Translations under genes and position numbers: made by a program | Shown here: positions 20,107 through 28,035 of the stretch, piece after piece | How the letters are laid out: every line of letters begins with the position of its first letter | Numbering within the stretch: position 1 is the stretch's first letter | Notes under the pieces: generated by a model | Databases searched by the model: none | What the model was told of the DNA's origin: nothing | The model's input: only the letters and a program-made list of their open reading frames with translations | Virus record (IMG/VR): IMGVR_UViG_3300042939_000222 | Span: 1 to 31,719 of that record | Direction: 5' to 3' (one strand) | Length of the DNA stretch: 31,719 bases | DNA from: a virus

Positions 20107-23100
20107 ATGGCAAATATAGTTTATCGTGGTTCAGCAGTTCCAAATGCAGTTAATAGTGCAGCTGCTAAAAACGCGCCTTTAACTAACGAAGAAATTGATA
20201 AGAATTTATATGCTCTTGACATTGGTAAGTTAGATAAAAATGATGCAGCGACTCAAACAATATCCGGACCAGTACAATTTAGTAGTGCTGTCACTATCAA
20301 CGGCAATTTAACTGTTTCAGGTTCTGTAACTACTATAAACTCAACCACGTTAAGTGTTGACGATAAAAATATAGAATTAGGAGATGTTGCCACGCCTACA
20401 AATGCTACAGCTGATGGAGGTGGTATTACTCTGTTGGGTGGAAATGATGGCAACAAAACATTTAATTGGCTCAATGCTACATCGTCTTGGACTTCTAGTG
20501 AAAATTTAAATCTTGCTACTGGAAAAACATATAAGATTGCGGGGTCTGATGTATTAACCGCCACCCAAGTATTAGGAAAAACACTTCCTGCAGGCACTGT
20601 CGTTGGTACCTCAGATGCGCAAACTCTCACAAATAAAACTATAACAGGAACATTTACAGGACCATTGACAGGCAATGTTACAGGTAATGCCGATACAGCC
20701 ACTAAGTTACAAACAGCTCGCACAATTAATGGTCAGAGTTTTGACGGTAGCGCAAACATTAGTTTTAGTACAACCGCTGTAAGTGAAGGCACAAACTTAT
20801 ACTATACGGACGCTCGTGCAAGAGCTGCATTAAGTTTTACAGCAGGTTCAGGTGCCTATAATAGTACATCTGGTGTTATCACTATCCCAACAAATACCAA
20901 TCAACTAACTAATGGCGCAGGATTCGCAACAACAGCTTACGTTGACACTGCTGTTGCAGGTAAAGATAATACTGATGAAATCACAGAAGGTTTGGCCAAT
21001 CTTTATTTTACAAATGCTCGTGCAAGAGCTGCACTAAGTTTTACAGCAGGTTCAGGTGCTTATAATAGCACATCTGGTGTTATTACTATTCCAACAAATA
21101 CCAATCAACTAACTAACGGTGCTGGTTATGTTACAAGTTCTGGTGTCACAGATGTAACCGCAACAGCTCCTATAGTCAGTAGTCGTGGAACGACACCGGA
21201 TATATCTATACCTCCGGCCACAGCATCCGCAAATGGCTATATGACTTCTGCATACGCAGCTAAGCTAGATGGTATTGCAGCTGGCGCTCAGGTTAATGTA
21301 GCCACAAACTTAGCACAAGGTACACGCACTGGAACTACAGTTCCAATTACTAGCTCAACTGGAACAACAGCAACGTTAGATGTTGCTACAACATCATTAG
21401 CTGGTGTTATGAGCTCAGCTGATAAGACTAAGTTAGATGGCATTGCAACTGGTGCTACTGCTAATACTGGCACAGTGACTAGTGTTGCAACTGGTACAGG
21501 TCTAACTGGTGGTACAATTACTACCACAGGCACAATTTCTATTGATTCTACTGTAGTAACATTGACTGGCGCACAAACTCTTACGAACAAAACTTTGACT
21601 CTGCCAACAATTGGTGGCACTGGTGCGACATTTAATGGGTCTACTAGTGGTACCACAGTGTTAAAGGCAGCTGCTGCAGCAGGTACGACGACTATCACTA
21701 TGCCAGCAACTACAGGCACAATGGCGCTAACCAGTGATTTGCCAACAGTGAATAGCGGTGCATTAACGCTGAATATTGGCACAGCAGCTGCAACAAATAA
21801 TACTGTAACAGTTATAACTGGTACAGGTTTTAATGCAAACTCTGCTAGTGCTGCTACTTACCAATTAGGTATTGGTCCAGCACTAACCGCTTTAGCTTCT
21901 ACAATGACTGGAGCAGGCACTGGTTTTATTAGAAAAAACGGTGCAGACACTTACTCAATTGACACAAATACGTACTTAACTGGTAATCAATCAATTACGT
22001 TAACTGGTGATGTTACTGGATCTGGTACTACTTCAATTGCTACAACTCTTGCTACAGTTAACAGTAACGTTGGTACTTTCAATAATGTTACTGTTAACGC
22101 TAAAGGTTTAGTAACTAGTGCATCAAACGTTGCGTATGCTACAAGTGCTCACCAAACTCACTATATTGGTACTACTCAAGTACAAGCAAGTTCTGCAAAT
22201 CAAGCAGTAACAGGAATAACTTCTATAACTGGAGAAACTGGATTTGATGGTACCGGTGGATATAAAAGAATAGATATTATTGGAGGTTCACCTTCAGCAA
22301 ACAATACTTCTTGGGCGCAAGGCGCCACTGTAATGTTACAGGGAGGAAATTCAGCGGCTGGTGGAACGGGGGCTTTTCAATATGGAGGAAGTGTTTATAT
22401 TGTTGGAGGCTATTCAGCAAGTACTTCGAATGTGACAAAAGGTGGAGGAAGTGTTTATATAGAAGGTGGTGGCACGCAGTCAACCGGAGGTGGTACGCGC
22501 ACCAATGGTTCAATATACATTGGTACCAGTGCTTTATCTATAAACAATTGCGTTACTGCAGACATTATTTTAGGCAGAAGCACTTCGCATTCTCTTGGAT
22601 CAACTACTACATATATTAACGGTCCGATAAAAGTTAGTGGTTCAATTGCTAATGAAACTGACACTAATAGTTATTTAGATTTAGCTTCAACTACAACAAG
22701 TCTTAACGTCCGAGGCAAATTAGTATCGGGTAAGAATATCTTTGGCGCTGGCACTACTGGTGGATTAATATTATACGGCGCAAATGCTTCACCAGCGGCA
22801 GGAGAGTATAAGTTTGAAATAACACCAACATATTCTGCAAACTTGGGCGGCGGCTTTGGAACAGTATATACTACAACGTTTAACACTGCATCGGGTTCTA
22901 ATAGAACTGGATATTCGTTTAGTGTTGATGGTCTATCAGTATTCGATATACACGGACCTTTTGGATTAAAATATCGTAATTGGGAGAGAACTGGATCATT
23001 TGGACAAGGTCCAGATTTTCAAATAATAGCTGGAGGAGTAGTTAATGGCACATCTATTCCGCACATCATAAATCTTGGATATACTGGAAATTCATTTTCT

Positions 23101-23475
23101 CCCGCTCTTACAATTGCAAGAGAATCTGATAACACAGCATTGCTGCAATTAAGCACTGCAGGTAATCTAACTGCTACAGGCAACGTAACTGCTTATTCTG
23201 ATGCTCGTCTAAAGACTAATGTTCAGACTATAGAGAATTCTTTAGATAAGACTCTTAAGCTTCGTGGCGTATCGTACGAGAGAGATGGCAAAAAGAATAT
23301 CGGTGTCATTGCTCAAGAAATTCGCGAGATACTTCCAGAAGTTGTTTATGAAAACGATGACGAACAAAAGACTCTCTCGGTTTCCTACGGAAATGTTGTT
23401 GGTCTTCTAATCGAAGCTATTAAGGAATTAAATGCTAAAGTTGAAGATCTCCAAAATCAACTTGCAAATAAATAA
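20107..23475 (+). CDS. Tail fiber with C-terminal endosialidase-type chaperone (peptidase S74) domain
   Basis: A 1122-residue fiber. Residues 23-34 carry an attachment-type motif (APLTNEEIDKNL). Then come a TTINST spacer module (about 65-140), two tandem 68-residue units, two KLDGIAxGA units, TLTNKT and AGTTTITMPATTGTMALTSD spacers, and a Gly-rich domain with 20-residue rungs (739-810). Residues 1031-1122 are an intramolecular chaperone: SDARLKTNV, IGVIAQEIREILPEVV, and a C-terminal coiled coil (LLIEAIKELNAKVEDLQNQL). In this family the chaperone trimerises the beta-helical fiber and cuts itself off before the Ser of SDxRLK, here S1031, using a catalytic Ser/Lys pair. This is a good candidate for a receptor-binding fiber; the target is unknown. 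Confidence 0.88.
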   Translation: MANIVYRGSAVPNAVNSAAAKNAPLTNEEIDKNLYALDIGKLDKNDAATQTISGPVQFSSAVTINGNLTVSGSVTTINSTTLSVDDKNIELGDVATPTNATADGGGITLLGGNDGNKTFNWLNATSSWTSSENLNLATGKTYKIAGSDVLTATQVLGKTLPAGTVVGTSDAQTLTNKTITGTFTGPLTGNVTGNADTATKLQTARTINGQSFDGSANISFSTTAVSEGTNLYYTDARARAALSFTAGSGAYNSTSGVITIPTNTNQLTNGAGFATTAYVDTAVAGKDNTDEITEGLANLYFTNARARAALSFTAGSGAYNSTSGVITIPTNTNQLTNGAGYVTSSGVTDVTATAPIVSSRGTTPDISIPPATASANGYMTSAYAAKLDGIAAGAQVNVATNLAQGTRTGTTVPITSSTGTTATLDVATTSLAGVMSSADKTKLDGIATGATANTGTVTSVATGTGLTGGTITTTGTISIDSTVVTLTGAQTLTNKTLTLPTIGGTGATFNGSTSGTTVLKAAAAAGTTTITMPATTGTMALTSDLPTVNSGALTLNIGTAAATNNTVTVITGTGFNANSASAATYQLGIGPALTALASTMTGAGTGFIRKNGADTYSIDTNTYLTGNQSITLTGDVTGSGTTSIATTLATVNSNVGTFNNVTVNAKGLVTSASNVAYATSAHQTHYIGTTQVQASSANQAVTGITSITGETGFDGTGGYKRIDIIGGSPSANNTSWAQGATVMLQGGNSAAGGTGAFQYGGSVYIVGGYSASTSNVTKGGGSVYIEGGGTQSTGGGTRTNGSIYIGTSALSINNCVTADIILGRSTSHSLGSTTTYINGPIKVSGSIANETDTNSYLDLASTTTSLNVRGKLVSGKNIFGAGTTGGLILYGANASPAAGEYKFEITPTYSANLGGGFGTVYTTTFNTASGSNRTGYSFSVDGLSVFDIHGPFGLKYRNWERTGSFGQGPDFQIIAGGVVNGTSIPHIINLGYTGNSFSPALTIARESDNTALLQLSTAGNLTATGNVTAYSDARLKTNVQTIENSLDKTLKLRGVSYERDGKKNIGVIAQEIREILPEVVYENDDEQKTLSVSYGNVVGLLIEAIKELNAKVEDLQNQLANK
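20812..21126 (+). repeat. Tandem 204-bp units in the S74 fiber gene
   Basis: Bases 20812-20922 and 21016-21126 are the same 111-base core at an exact 204-base offset without gaps. The 37 encoded residues (starting ARARAALSFTAGSGAYNSTS) are identical, and all base changes I see are synonymous. Confidence 0.92.
22321..22530 (+). repeat. Glycine-rich 20-residue rung repeats in the S74 fiber
   Basis: The rungs are ATVMLQGG, GSVYIVGG, GSVYIEGG and GSIYIG, starting at residues 740, 761, 781 and 801. The period is 20-21 residues, with Gly-, Ser- and Thr-rich loops between strands. This suggests a beta-helix or glycine-rich receptor-binding domain. Confidence 0.8.
23467..23474 (+). promoter_or_regulatory. 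Possible late promoter box (AATAAATA) before the Ig-like gene
   Basis: AATAAATA overlaps the stop of the S74 fiber gene, 17 bases before the ATG at 23492. The ribosome binding site AAGAGG (23478-23483) follows directly, so the leader would be very short and the box may be partly a by-product of AT-rich stop regions. Confidence 0.3.
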
Positions 23476-23491: not shown

Positions 23492-23833
23492 ATGGCAATG
23501 ACCGCTTACTTAGATGTAGATCAAGGATCTGATTTTTCAGTTATTATCGATTTAGAAAACGACGATGGTTCTCCAATGAATCTTTTTGGGACTCAGATAT
23601 ATTCTCAGTTTAGAAAGAGTTATAATTCTTCGACAGCTTATTCGTTCGTATGTGAAATACTCGATGCAGTAAATGGAAAATTTAGATTGAAACTTTCCGG
23701 ATTAACATCTTCCTCTATTAAGCCAGGTCGATATCTATATGACGTAGAAATTGTAAACCCAGGTAATAACTCTAAGAGTCGCGTTGTTCAAGGCATAGTT
23801 ACAATCAACCCAGAAATAACTAAGATACCATGA
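23492..23833 (+). CDS. Small Ig-like structural protein (BppU N-terminal-like)
   Basis: A 113-residue beta protein. The pattern LDVDQGSDFSVIIDLENDDG, then a hydrophobic strand with IYSQFRKS, then KFRLKLSGLTSSSIKPGRYL and YDVEI, ending VVQGIVTINPEIT, resembles the immunoglobulin-like N-terminal domain of baseplate upper proteins and similar accessory proteins next to fibers in many phages. It probably packs against a fiber base or a baseplate ring. A good ribosome binding site AAGAGG lies eight bases before the ATG. The stop overlaps the next start as ATGA. Fold assignment is by pattern; no specific partner can be shown. Confidence 0.68.
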   Translation: MAMTAYLDVDQGSDFSVIIDLENDDGSPMNLFGTQIYSQFRKSYNSSTAYSFVCEILDAVNGKFRLKLSGLTSSSIKPGRYLYDVEIVNPGNNSKSRVVQGIVTINPEITKIP

Positions 23834-24069
23834 AAATAAAAGTAACTGGTCAAACTTCAAAAGTTGTTTCTGTTAATACGCAGGGAACAACTGAAGTAGT
23901 GGCGGTTGGAGTTCAGGGACCATCTGGTCCTAATTATGTCAATACGGCTGGAGACGTCGATGTTTCCAATCTAGAAAATGGATCGGTTTTAGTATACAAG
24001 AGTAGCTCATTAAAGTGGACAGCTACTAGAACTCTAGAGGGACAAAATCTAGAGGGCGGACACTATTAA
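23830..24069 (+). CDS. Small fiber-associated protein with short collagen-like turn
   Basis: A 79-residue protein, translationally coupled to the Ig-like gene by ATGA. It has an N-terminal beta part (KIKVTGQTSKVVSVNTQGTT), a short GVQGPSGP, and a segment LENGSVLVYKSSSLKWTATR that matches a module in fibers; the 494-residue fiber has a related NGDLLIYNSSTNSWENF. The last ten residues, EGQNLEGGHY, share the pattern [ED]-G-x-x-[LI]-[ED]-G-G-x-Y with the end of the next protein. This suggests a common assembly or attachment signal. Function is otherwise unknown. Too short to be a fiber itself, it may be an adaptor. Confidence 0.62.
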   Translation: MKIKVTGQTSKVVSVNTQGTTEVVAVGVQGPSGPNYVNTAGDVDVSNLENGSVLVYKSSSLKWTATRTLEGQNLEGGHY

Positions 24070-24083
24070 AGGGAAAAAAATAA

Positions 24084-26477
24084 ATGGCATCAATTATTAG
24101 AATAAAACGTTCCGGCACCTCTGGTAATCCGTCAACACTTGGCCAAGGCGAACTAGCGTATTCATCATTAGCCAATAACGACATAAACGGTGGCGATAGG
24201 TTATACATCGGTGTTGGCGCAGAAACTGCTGGTAATGCTAATGAACACGTAGTCATCGGTGGTAAGTACTTCACTGATCTACTAGATCATACGCGTGGTA
24301 CACTTCAGGCTAGTTCGGCACTTATCACTGATTCCAGCAGTAAGTTAGATCAGTTAAAAGTAGATAATCTTGATTTTAATGGCAACAGTATCACGTCAAC
24401 TGATACTAATGGTGACATTAATATTACGCCTGATGGAACTGGTTCTACTCGCGTTAAGAATCTAATTGCATCGAATGTAACTAATTCTGATCTTACTGCC
24501 GGACGTGTTACGTTTGCAGGAACTGCTGGTCTCTTAGATGATGATTCTAATTTCCTTTGGGATGATACCAACAAACAACTTAATATTACCGGTGCTGCTA
24601 AAGTCGATAATATCAAGCTTGATGGCAATACTATCTCGACAACCAACGATAACGGCAACTTAATTCTTCGCCCTCTTCAAGTCAATGCAGATACTACTGC
24701 ATCTCAGGGTGTAGTACAAGTCGATAATGTACGCGGTTTAGTAATTCCAGTCGGTACAACTGCACAGCGTCCATCAGCACCTTTACAAGGTTTAATTCGC
24801 TATAACACTTCAATTTCTCAGTTTGAAGGCTATAACGGCACCAGTTATATTTCAATTGGTGGAGTACGAGATGTAGATGGAAATACCTACATCATTCCAG
24901 AACTCTCACCAGGATCTAACGAGAATACTCTGTATTTCTACACAGATGGTGTAGAAAGAGCGACACTTTCAACTTCACAGTTAAGTGTACACACAAGTAT
25001 TACTACAATCTTTAACGCAACTACAGCATCTACAACTACTACATCTGGTGCTCTTCAAGTTGTTGGTGGTGTTGGTATTGGTGGACAGTTAAATGTAGGT
25101 GGTGCAACTTCTAAGTTTACTGCGAACACAGCATCTACTGATTCAACTACAGGTGCTCTTGTAGTCACAGGTGGTGTAGGTGTCGGTGGAAATGTAAATG
25201 TTGCTGGTAACGCAGCGATTACAGGTACATTTACAGTCGCTTCAAATGCTTCTCCTCAAGCTGTTGACATTGAAGCTTCTACTTTAAATCTGCAATCTCA
25301 ACAGAATGCTTCGATTGGTTTAAGTACAAACAGTGCTTCAACCTATACTCTAACTATCGATGCGCTGAATTCAGGTGTAGGTGGCGCAAATCTTGATGTA
25401 AATGTTGAGAGTGATTTCACTCTTGATGCTACGACTGTAAGCATTGATTCTACAGATTCTAGCAACTTCAGCATGACGGCAAATAGTGCGTCGACTAAGA
25501 CGCTGACTATCGATGCTACAAACACAGGTGCTGGAACTGCTGCTATCGTTATCGGTTCAGTCGACACCGACAACGTAACTGTTAACGCTAATGCTACTAC
25601 CGGTGTTGTTGATGTTAACGCAAGTCAAGTTACAATTGATGTTCCTAATGTAGATGTTAATGCTTCGACAGTTGATATCGTAACTTCAGGTGGTGGCGAT
25701 GCTGTAACGATTACATCTGGAACTACACAGGTAAATTCAAATACTGTCAACATCATCGGTAAGAATGGTACTGCAGATTCTACAGTTACTATCACCGGTA
25801 TTCTAAATGCAGATAATTTACGTTTAGATGGCAACACGATTTCTACGACTGACGGATCAAACACTCTTTATCTTGATCCAGCTCCTGTTAATAATATCGG
25901 TGGTGTAGTTGTTATTAAAGGCGATCTACAAGTTGATGGTACGACAACCACTATTAACTCTACGCAAGTTACGATCGATGATCCAATCTTCCTACTTGGT
26001 GGAGACACAGTTCCTTCTGCAGACGACAATCTAGATCGTGGTATCGAATTTAGATGGCACAATGGAACTGTTGCAAAACTTGGATTCTTTGGTTACGACG
26101 ATTCAGCTGAAGAATTTATCTTTGTTCCAGATGCTACAGACACTAATGGCGTAATTTCTGGAACAAACGGTAATTCGGTATTCGGTAAATTACGTTTAAC
26201 TGATACGACTTCTTCTACTACTACAACAACTGGTGCACTAAAAGTTGCAGGCGGGGTTGGTATCGAAGGTCAGTTGAATGTTGGTGGTGCAACTAATAAA
26301 CTTACCGGCAATACTAATTCTTCATCAACAACCTCGGGTACTCTCGTAGTTAGCGGTGGTGTTGGTATCAGCCAGAGCATATATGTAGGTGATGATATTG
26401 TAGGTTCAGGTGCAGGAACTCTAGCAGCACCAGGTTCAGTAATCGACGGATTTATGATCGACGGTGGAACCTATTAA
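24084..26477 (+). CDS. Tail fiber-like structural protein with Mtd-N-like start
   Basis: A 797-residue modular protein. The N-terminus (IIRIKRSGTSGNPSTLGQGE, then LAYSS) resembles the virion-binding start of the major tropism determinant and similar fibers. It then has three LDGNTIST-type units (about 24380, 24625 and 25830), two pairs of TTTTTGAL-x-V-x-GGVGI-x-G units, a beta-rich middle with repeated SASTxTLTIDAxNxG, and a TTINST module with ADDNLDRGIEFRWHNG. The C-terminal ten residues DGFMIDGGTY match the end of the 79-residue neighbour. There is no S74 or collar domain, so maturation must differ. The start has AAAGGG (24068-24073). A strong terminator follows the gene. Receptor binding is inferred, not shown. 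Confidence 0.75.
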   Translation: MASIIRIKRSGTSGNPSTLGQGELAYSSLANNDINGGDRLYIGVGAETAGNANEHVVIGGKYFTDLLDHTRGTLQASSALITDSSSKLDQLKVDNLDFNGNSITSTDTNGDINITPDGTGSTRVKNLIASNVTNSDLTAGRVTFAGTAGLLDDDSNFLWDDTNKQLNITGAAKVDNIKLDGNTISTTNDNGNLILRPLQVNADTTASQGVVQVDNVRGLVIPVGTTAQRPSAPLQGLIRYNTSISQFEGYNGTSYISIGGVRDVDGNTYIIPELSPGSNENTLYFYTDGVERATLSTSQLSVHTSITTIFNATTASTTTTSGALQVVGGVGIGGQLNVGGATSKFTANTASTDSTTGALVVTGGVGVGGNVNVAGNAAITGTFTVASNASPQAVDIEASTLNLQSQQNASIGLSTNSASTYTLTIDALNSGVGGANLDVNVESDFTLDATTVSIDSTDSSNFSMTANSASTKTLTIDATNTGAGTAAIVIGSVDTDNVTVNANATTGVVDVNASQVTIDVPNVDVNASTVDIVTSGGGDAVTITSGTTQVNSNTVNIIGKNGTADSTVTITGILNADNLRLDGNTISTTDGSNTLYLDPAPVNNIGGVVVIKGDLQVDGTTTTINSTQVTIDDPIFLLGGDTVPSADDNLDRGIEFRWHNGTVAKLGFFGYDDSAEEFIFVPDATDTNGVISGTNGNSVFGKLRLTDTTSSTTTTTGALKVAGGVGIEGQLNVGGATNKLTGNTNSSSTTSGTLVVSGGVGISQSIYVGDDIVGSGAGTLAAPGSVIDGFMIDGGTY
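25018..26385 (+). repeat. Four TGAL-GGVGI units in two pairs
   Basis: Units with pattern S-T-T-T-T-x-GAL-x-V-x-GGVG[IV]-x-G occur at about 25021, 25123, 26203 and 26308. The first and third each continue with QLNVGGAT. The pairs are about 1.18 kb apart, which suggests duplication of a two-unit block. Confidence 0.8.
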
Positions 26478-26550: not shown

Positions 26551-28035
26551 ATGGCCAACAAAATTGTTCTCAAGAAGTCCTCTGTTGTAGGACGAGTTCC
26601 CACAACGTCTGATTTAGAATATGGTGAATTAGCGCTTAATTACGCAGACGGCAAACTTTATTATAAGACTTCTGCAAACTCAATAGCGAGTCTTGGTGGG
26701 TCTACAAATCTAACACAGATTGATCGACAATCCTATACTGCGACAGCAGGTCAAACCACATTCGCTATCACATATGGAGTTCCATATGTAGACGTTTATA
26801 TCAACGGTGTACACCTAAGTGATGAAGATTACACCGCAACAAATGGTACTTCAATTGTATTAGCAGAAGCCTGCAGTGCGGGAGATCAAGTTGATTTAGT
26901 TGGTTACAGCGGAGGTGTAATTAGTGCAGCTCCAAAAGCCAACGGAGACCTGCTGATTTATAATTCTAGCACAAATTCGTGGGAGAACTTCCCTCAGGCT
27001 TCAGTCACAGTTGGAAACGCCAATAAGTGGACTACTGCTAGAACTCTTAGTTTCACTGGCGACGCCACTGGATCAATGTCTGTCGATGGATCGGCGAATG
27101 CTTCAGCAGCTCTCACTCTAGCTAACTCAGGTGTAACTGCAGGATCTTATGGATCTGCAAGCGCAGTTCCAGTCATAACAGTAGACGCAAAGGGAAGAGT
27201 AACTTCTCTAAGTACTACGTCTGTTGCAGGTATATCAAACACTGGTTTTAATTCAACGACAGGCACACTATCGATTAGTACTTCAGCTGGTACTACCTAT
27301 GTCGAAGATCTTGGAATAGGTACTTCTGATACTCCAACATTTGCTGGCATTTTCACAACTGGTAATGCAATAATCGGCGGAGTTTTAGCAGTTTCTGGTG
27401 AATTCAATAGTATTGGTATAGACGATAATTCTACACAGACGTCTATCATACTGCAACCAGGTAGTGCCACTAATATAACTTTTAATGCAACTGAGTTCTT
27501 TGGTTCAGCTTCTGCTACAAGTGGGACATTCAATTTATTCAACAGAGCGAGTGACGCCTCTGGAAATTACAATGGTCCTTCGACAGTAAATGCTTTTAGA
27601 GGTGCGACAGCTGTAACCATTGGTGCTGATAACGGAACTTTGACAGCAGCTAATAATTTGACTGTAACTGGTACAACTACATTAAATTCTATCAATCAAA
27701 AATCCGGCGCTAACACTATAGCAAATCAGGCAGTAATTCGAGCAACTGTAGCGACAACTGCTCAGACTGCTGTTGATACTTTCTCAGCAGCAACTTATAG
27801 ATCTGCAAAATACATTGTTCAAATAACACAGGGAACAAACTATCAGTCTTCAGAGATAATGATACTTCATGATGGCACTACAACATCCACTGCAGAATAC
27901 GCAATGATGAATACCGGTGGAACACTTGGAACTTTTAGTAGTGACATCAGTGGAGGAAACGTAAGACTCTTAGTTACGATGGCTTCGGGAACATCAGCAA
28001 CTATAAATATATCAAGAACGACTATCGTCGTATAA
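26551..28035 (+). CDS. Tail fiber-like structural protein with Mtd-N-like start
   Basis: A 494-residue protein that begins a new unit after the terminator. The N-terminus (IVLKKSSVVGRVPTTSDLEY, then GELALNYADGKLYYK) is a well-known start of fibers in marine myoviruses and resembles an Mtd-N virion-binding domain. Residues about 80-110 (VDVYINGVHLSDEDYTATNG) form a small beta domain common in phage fibers. The middle has the TARTLSFTGD module and VPVITVDAKGRV. The C-terminal 80 residues (from about 416: YRSAKYIVQITQGTNYQSSE, and on to NISRTTIVV) look like a conserved compact head domain. Start codon choice is supported by AGGA seven bases before. No chaperone domain is present. Confidence 0.75.
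   Translation: MANKIVLKKSSVVGRVPTTSDLEYGELALNYADGKLYYKTSANSIASLGGSTNLTQIDRQSYTATAGQTTFAITYGVPYVDVYINGVHLSDEDYTATNGTSIVLAEACSAGDQVDLVGYSGGVISAAPKANGDLLIYNSSTNSWENFPQASVTVGNANKWTTARTLSFTGDATGSMSVDGSANASAALTLANSGVTAGSYGSASAVPVITVDAKGRVTSLSTTSVAGISNTGFNSTTGTLSISTSAGTTYVEDLGIGTSDTPTFAGIFTTGNAIIGGVLAVSGEFNSIGIDDNSTQTSIILQPGSATNITFNATEFFGSASATSGTFNLFNRASDASGNYNGPSTVNAFRGATAVTIGADNGTLTAANNLTVTGTTTLNSINQKSGANTIANQAVIRATVATTAQTAVDTFSAATYRSAKYIVQITQGTNYQSSEIMILHDGTTTSTAEYAMMNTGGTLGTFSSDISGGNVRLLVTMASGTSATINISRTTIVV

Follow-up and report, generated by a model that had tools for sequence, protein, structure and literature searches.

A C-terminal tag that follows the socket class of the next tail-fibre protein: a probable end-to-end joint in phage fibres

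Why should two neighbouring phage proteins that otherwise differ end in nearly the same residues? The question is raised by an IMG/VR virus contig of 31.7 kb with T4-like baseplate and tail-fibre genes (31,719 nucleotides, here called the window), in which a first-pass annotation had noticed a common ten-residue ending on a 79-amino-acid (aa) and a 797-aa protein and proposed an assembly, capping or partner-recognition signal. Both endings, EGQNLEGGHY and DGFMIDGGTY, were recovered exactly (Table 1). End-to-end joining of fibre segments is known in tailed phages, and we assessed the endings across IMG/VR loci, named phages and published fibre joints.

Table 1 Features of the fibre locus, with positions in the window.
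Feature	Position	Strand	Basis
1122-aa fibre	20107..23475		
113-aa protein, conserved gene 5' of the tagged small protein	23492..23833	+	PHROG matches
79-aa starter protein, tag without socket	23830..24069	+	ORF and relatives
Ending EGQNLEGGHY of the 79-aa ORF	24037..24066		
C-terminal tag LEGGHY, joint-1 type	24049..24066	+	translation, relatives, joint-type counts
797-aa middle fibre, N-terminal socket and C-terminal tag	24084..26477	+	ORF
N-terminal socket, GELAY type, ~50 residues, extent approximate	24084..24233	+	
Ending DGFMIDGGTY of the 797-aa ORF	26445..26474		
C-terminal tag IDGGTY, joint-2 type	26457..26474	+	translation
494-aa terminal fibre, N-terminal socket without tag	26551..28035	+	ORF
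N-terminal socket of the 494-aa fibre, GELALN type	26551..26700	+	sequence, AF2 model

Residues and conservation of the tag

The shared C-terminal tag held up but its proposed ten-residue length did not, as relatives vary outside a core of five to six residues. Among relatives of the 79-aa protein (L002-L006, DC31, P-HM2, S-CAM9 and S-T4), endings range from EEQNLEGGHY and EQQNLEGGHY (L003 and L004) to IESGQY (DC31), INGGSF (P-HM2), LDGGAF (S-CAM9) and IDGGTY (S-T4), and the next fibre ends in IDGGTY (DC31), IDGGTF (P-HM2) or IDCGTY (S-CAM9). Across 35 clusters of proteins encoded upstream of the socket domain described below (a profile from which IDGGTY endings of tag-selected loci were excluded), positions -5, -4, -3 and -1 alone (D, G, G and F/Y) exceeded 1.2 bits, and positions -6 to -30 had no comparable conservation. 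Among 968 proteins (261,636 residues) from socket-selected loci and the window, the pattern [ILVM][DNE]GG.[YF] fell at 63 C-terminal and 9 internal sites (binomial P about 1e-142, relatedness ignored), which is the C-terminal enrichment on which the first-pass annotation had staked its reading.

In a scan of the whole IMG/VR collection, IDGGTY followed by a TAA stop occurred in at least 120 stretches, and all 122 of the matches listed end an open frame, nearly all of them fibre-like by eye; the tag also terminates small proteins of 66-97 aa. IDGGTY followed by lysine was found in 74 stretches (full scan), with 27 of 78 matches in frames of at least 100 aa. Most of these IDGGTYK matches (L136, L138, L144 and others) lie in tiny frames with identical flanks and seem to be the complement of one abundant coding stretch (reading approximately RxVPPSIS), and L179 holds a 27-residue repeat with IDGGTYK in tandem at both contig ends.

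Gene order and class pairing

In tag-selected loci, the protein encoded after a tagged one opens with a domain of approximately 50 residues (MANxIxIKRSxxxGxxPTTSDLxxGELAxN), here termed the socket, which was found within the first 15 residues in all 156 proteins carrying it. The order per locus is tag, then socket plus tag, then socket; in the window, these are the 79-aa, 797-aa and 494-aa genes, respectively. After 29 members of a small-protein class (MSNYTK) and 14 ORFs within 450 nt of a contig end were removed from 117 ORFs ending in IDGGTY, 63 of the remaining 74 had a socket start no more than 300 nt downstream (60 IKRS-type and 3 Mtd-type), compared with 49 of 893 untagged ORFs. None of the 29 MSNYTK proteins had an adjacent socket; sockets were present on 7 of 20 of their contigs (one each, none adjacent), which are mostly fragments, and the MSNYTK-class protein had no match in phages. 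MSNYTK proteins (66-84 aa; L024, L026, L030, L044, L111 and others) sit after a protein of approximately 505 aa (MAQxLQSI.. or similar), and the following gene often starts with a one-base overlap of the tag gene's stop.

An independent test used 80 loci fetched by an IKRS-type socket and 80 fetched by Mtd-type sockets, not by the tag, with the longest open frame whose end lay close to the start of the socket taken as the upstream gene and scored with fixed patterns; rows with identical last 60 residues and ten IKRS sockets without upstream sequence were dropped before counting. The strict tag was found upstream of 71 of 100 non-redundant IKRS sockets (76 strict or loose) and of 2 of 96 Mtd-type sockets (65 strict or loose). 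Among 562 other ORFs in the socket-selected loci, the background was 5 for the strict, 15 for the loose and 3 for the Mtd-type tag, and some of the five strict-tag ORFs were socket fibres themselves.

Tag class followed socket class, with DGGx[YF] endings preceding IKRS-type sockets and D[FYWL]Gx[ILV] endings preceding Mtd-type sockets. When upstream proteins were grouped into clusters of 40% identity, leaving out the tag, strict tags ended 11 of 21 IKRS-upstream and 1 of 44 Mtd-upstream clusters, and Mtd-type tags ended 0 of 21 and 30 of 44, respectively (Fisher tests on these counts are uncorrected for ancestry beyond the clustering). Within the IKRS class, threonine occupied position -2 in 47 of the 52 tags that precede joint-2 (GELA-hydrophobic) sockets, compared with 3 of the 34 that precede joint-1 (GELA-[YF]) sockets (three were unclassified), a rule that both joints of the window obey. 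The two window tags, initially taken as one signal, belong instead to two joint types (x[ED]GG[EQNH][YF] and IDGGT[YF]). Partner recognition, one of the roles first proposed, gained support, in that the presence of a tag predicts an N-terminal socket in the protein that follows, with tag and socket corresponding in class. The pairing is not absolute, because a few loci have a DGGxY-type tag ahead of an Mtd-type socket (2 of 96 socket-selected and 3 of 63 tag-selected).

A proposed plug-and-socket joint

We consider it likely, on these sequence patterns, that the tag is a C-terminal plug that fits an N-terminal socket, in orthogonal classes through which trimeric fibre segments would be chained in a defined order. 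One (presumably trimeric) segment would insert its final five to six residues into the approximately 50-residue socket of the next, with all three copies of the C-terminal tail in a trimer entering the trimeric socket of the following one in a putative 3:3 geometry. A starter would carry a plug only, a middle segment a socket and a plug, and a terminal segment a socket only, which in the window would give a chain of 79-aa adaptor, 797-aa fibre and 494-aa fibre. Segment order would be set by plug and socket classes that do not mix, which may prevent mis-ordering: xEGG[HEQN][YF] is predicted to enter GELAY-type sockets, IDGGT[YF] GELAIN-type sockets, D[FYWL]Gx[ILV] Mtd-type sockets and DFGYY T4-type gp37.

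Further endings were observed in these loci. In L029, L032 and L107, the gene before an Mtd-type protein (VQFRRGT..FTGA) encodes a short IKRS-socket protein with the ending EDLGSV or EDLGAFS, as if to convert one joint class to another, and similar endings (IDYGSI and VDYGSL) occur in L099, L106 and L126. A family of approximately 953-1059 aa ending in NLFWSEAQA (L218, L221, L241 and relatives; 25 rows in 2 clusters upstream of Mtd sockets) directly precedes Mtd-type socket proteins, and its ending may break the tag rule or represent a different type of plug. Recurrent C-termini of terminal socket proteins without a DGG tag (..AIALG and ..YSIIFGF/AYSIVFGG in L017, L018, L028, L035, L058, L101, L113, L114 and L131; ..VTVGSGETLTIV in L014, L020 and L075) could be further docking or capping classes. 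The 1122-aa fibre that adjoins the tag-ended chain in the window has a C-terminal Peptidase_S74 intramolecular chaperone domain, a different way of finishing a fibre.

A motif that caps the trimer or terminates folding in beta-structured fibres, acting on its own without a partner, would suit trimers, which need capped ends, and the position of the tag, by eye, at the end of beta-rich fibre modules. Nevertheless, this explanation, and with it the capping role first suggested, appears improbable: the tag is absent from terminal fibres, where a cap would be needed too, proteins of 66-97 aa end in it as well, and its residues track the socket class of the next protein. We hold it just as doubtful that a common assembly chaperone or baseplate protein binds the tag and that sockets are merely frequent neighbours. 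Consistent with such a binder, MSNYTK proteins are tagged without an adjacent socket, and many starter genes have a conserved 113-aa 'assembly' gene upstream, which is the same neighbour in P-HM2, S-CAM9 and S-T4 and whose product in the window matches phrog_1084 (E = 5.7e-24) and phrog_3304 ('L-shaped tail fiber protein assembly', E = 3.1e-19), with a weak, sub-threshold match to BppU_N. However, tag class tracks socket class rather than a chaperone, and the relation extends to BPP-1, T4-type and Vibrio phages, where no 113-aa-type gene was noted beside the tagged gene. Docking of plug into socket is the reading that we favour.

Named phages and known fibre joints

In named phages, a loose tag ends the gene just upstream at 21 of 37 sockets. 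These endings are DLGGIA in bbp9 before mtd (BPP-1), FDFGSI (CRP-3), IDFGTL (S-TIP37), VNLGGLA (AH02), VDLGSVA (HTVC008M), LDYGSVA (1.021.A), FDDGGLS (D69), DFGYY in gp36 before gp37 (T2, SP18, VR25 and CLBP2), IDGGAF and IDGGSF (Vibrio 1.208.B), FDRGTF and LDEGTY (Motura) and DGGTFE (RB11-B), and genes upstream of sockets are also tagged in DC31, P-HM2, S-CAM9 and Mosig. The 16 sockets without a tag immediately upstream are those of Phosso (2), K437b (2), ACG-2014f, S-SCSM1, S-SSM7, S-CAM3, Syn33, DCP80, S-CAM9 (920), S-T4 (847), Motura (2), P-HM2 (2423) and Mosig (126), and in the last two cases the tag lies one small ORF further up. Tag and socket numbers were equal in 8 of 11 genomes (2/2 in S-CAM9, P-HM2, DC31 and Mosig; 1/1 in S-T4, BPP-1, HTVC008M and T2, the last scanned around gp36/gp37 only) and unequal in 1.208.B (3/2), Motura (2/4, tags beside sockets only) and Syn33 (0/1, tags within 40.6 kb only); left out of these tallies are an 80-aa tag ORF on the antisense strand of S-CAM9 and, in each of S-T4, P-HM2 and 1.208.B, one Mtd-type ending attributed to chance. 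In S-T4 and S-CAM9, tag and socket partners lie tens of kilobases apart, so that the match between them calls for more than adjacency to explain it. Shared descent or DNA constraint (a remnant of a common C-terminal domain, a site of recombination or a ribosome-binding site embedded in the gene) is a very remote explanation of the tag, for although phage fibres are mosaics and the glycine codons can contain GGAGG (39 of the 122 TAA-terminated matches), every synonymous codon was seen and GGAGG was absent from the other 83, so that the protein and not the DNA is conserved there, and both the lack of comparable conservation at -6 to -30 and the distances between tag and socket argue against it.

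By profile comparison, the socket is related to the N-terminus of T4-type gp37 and apparently also to the Mtd_N domain of Mtd from Bordetella phage. At E <= 1, the Mtd_N model (PF18454) matched 8 of the 23 socket sequences (best 5.3e-12) and not the 494-aa socket of the window, and a socket profile found mtd in the BPP-1 genome (E = 3.1e-6), matched Mtd chains in the PDB weakly (E = 0.014) and matched the gp37 N-terminus in the T2 record (E = 6.4e-15); tblastn with a socket query matched N-termini annotated as gp37. An AF2 monomer model of the window's 494-aa socket was confident over residues 1-50 (block pLDDT 86-94), with four short strands, and had no significant match among PDB folds (Foldseek best E 0.55; VIA-align best Z 3.2), the weak rows including N-terminal parts of streptococcal phage hyaluronidase and Geobacillus virus E2 ORF18. 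The AF2 model of the 79-aa protein had a mean pLDDT of 38.5, neither its family nor the 797-aa fibre had a match in the PDB, and a further socket variant had none in phages. SU10 gp13, considered as a further socket case, was rejected, as its N-terminus is by eye not a socket.

The T4-type joint resembles those of the window in that gp37 begins with the same socket domain and gp36, encoded just upstream, ends in DFGYY in 4 of 4 phages checked, a short match (D-F-G-Y-Y); trimeric gp36 is described as binding the N-terminal region of gp37 (PMC3004832, available text). The window's pair is not itself gp36/gp37: its plugs are EGGHY and DGGTY, its two joints are in series and none of the searches run linked its 79-aa starter to gp36 (the PHROGs matched by the 79- and 797-aa proteins are others, none of them named gp36, and these proteins share with gp36 only a terminal D-x-G-x-Y). 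A sequence search for a solved gp36/gp37 joint found none, and T2 gp36 searched against the PDB returned only unrelated enzymes and a transporter (E 0.16 or worse). Mtd of BPP-1 appears to belong to the socket family and follows a tagged fibre, bbp9, and its N-terminal beta-prism is the part by which it 'presumably attaches' to the fibre (PMC10743442, available text); unlike the window proteins, Mtd is a terminal C-type lectin adhesin, and Mtd-type sockets mostly go with D[FYWL]Gx[ILV] rather than DGGx[YF] endings. In the neck fibre of cyanophage A-1(L), compared by published description alone, gp82, gp81 repeats and gp80 correspond to starter, head-to-tail middle trimers and terminal piece, and N-terminal hairpins of gp81 are reported to contact the previous trimer as neck fibres chain head to tail (PMC10966104, available text). 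Judged from sequence, the joints of the window probably work like those of gp36/gp37 and bbp9/Mtd, uniting both.

Joints between fibre segments are known, and a sequence code for them is apparently unreported in the literature searched: searches on IDGGTY, a cyanophage C-terminal motif and the Mtd fibre C-terminus (subscription journals and preprints lying mostly outside their range) returned no description of the tag, and the available text of PMC3004832, PMC10743442 and PMC10966104 does not mention C-terminal tag residues. In the accessible parts of two further reports, contacts at the gp34 knee were left to future work (PMC5537660) and the SU10 long fibre was not resolved beyond 90 residues (PMC9509320). 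The class pairing suggests that Mtd_N is a docking domain, as against its interpretation, in the available text of PMC9206674, as involved in receptor specificity. We see evenly balanced prospects for a wider claim, that a general orthogonal code would set fibre composition and order across T4-like phages, cyanophages, pelagiphages, BPP-1-like phages and Vibrio phages, with some segments acting as adaptors between classes. Under that wider code, the order of joints, and pairs that lie tens of kilobases apart, could be readable from sequence alone; a six-residue code would predict which hypothetical genes of metagenomic phages form one fibre, and in which order, and with its class pairing would offer a directly testable joint.
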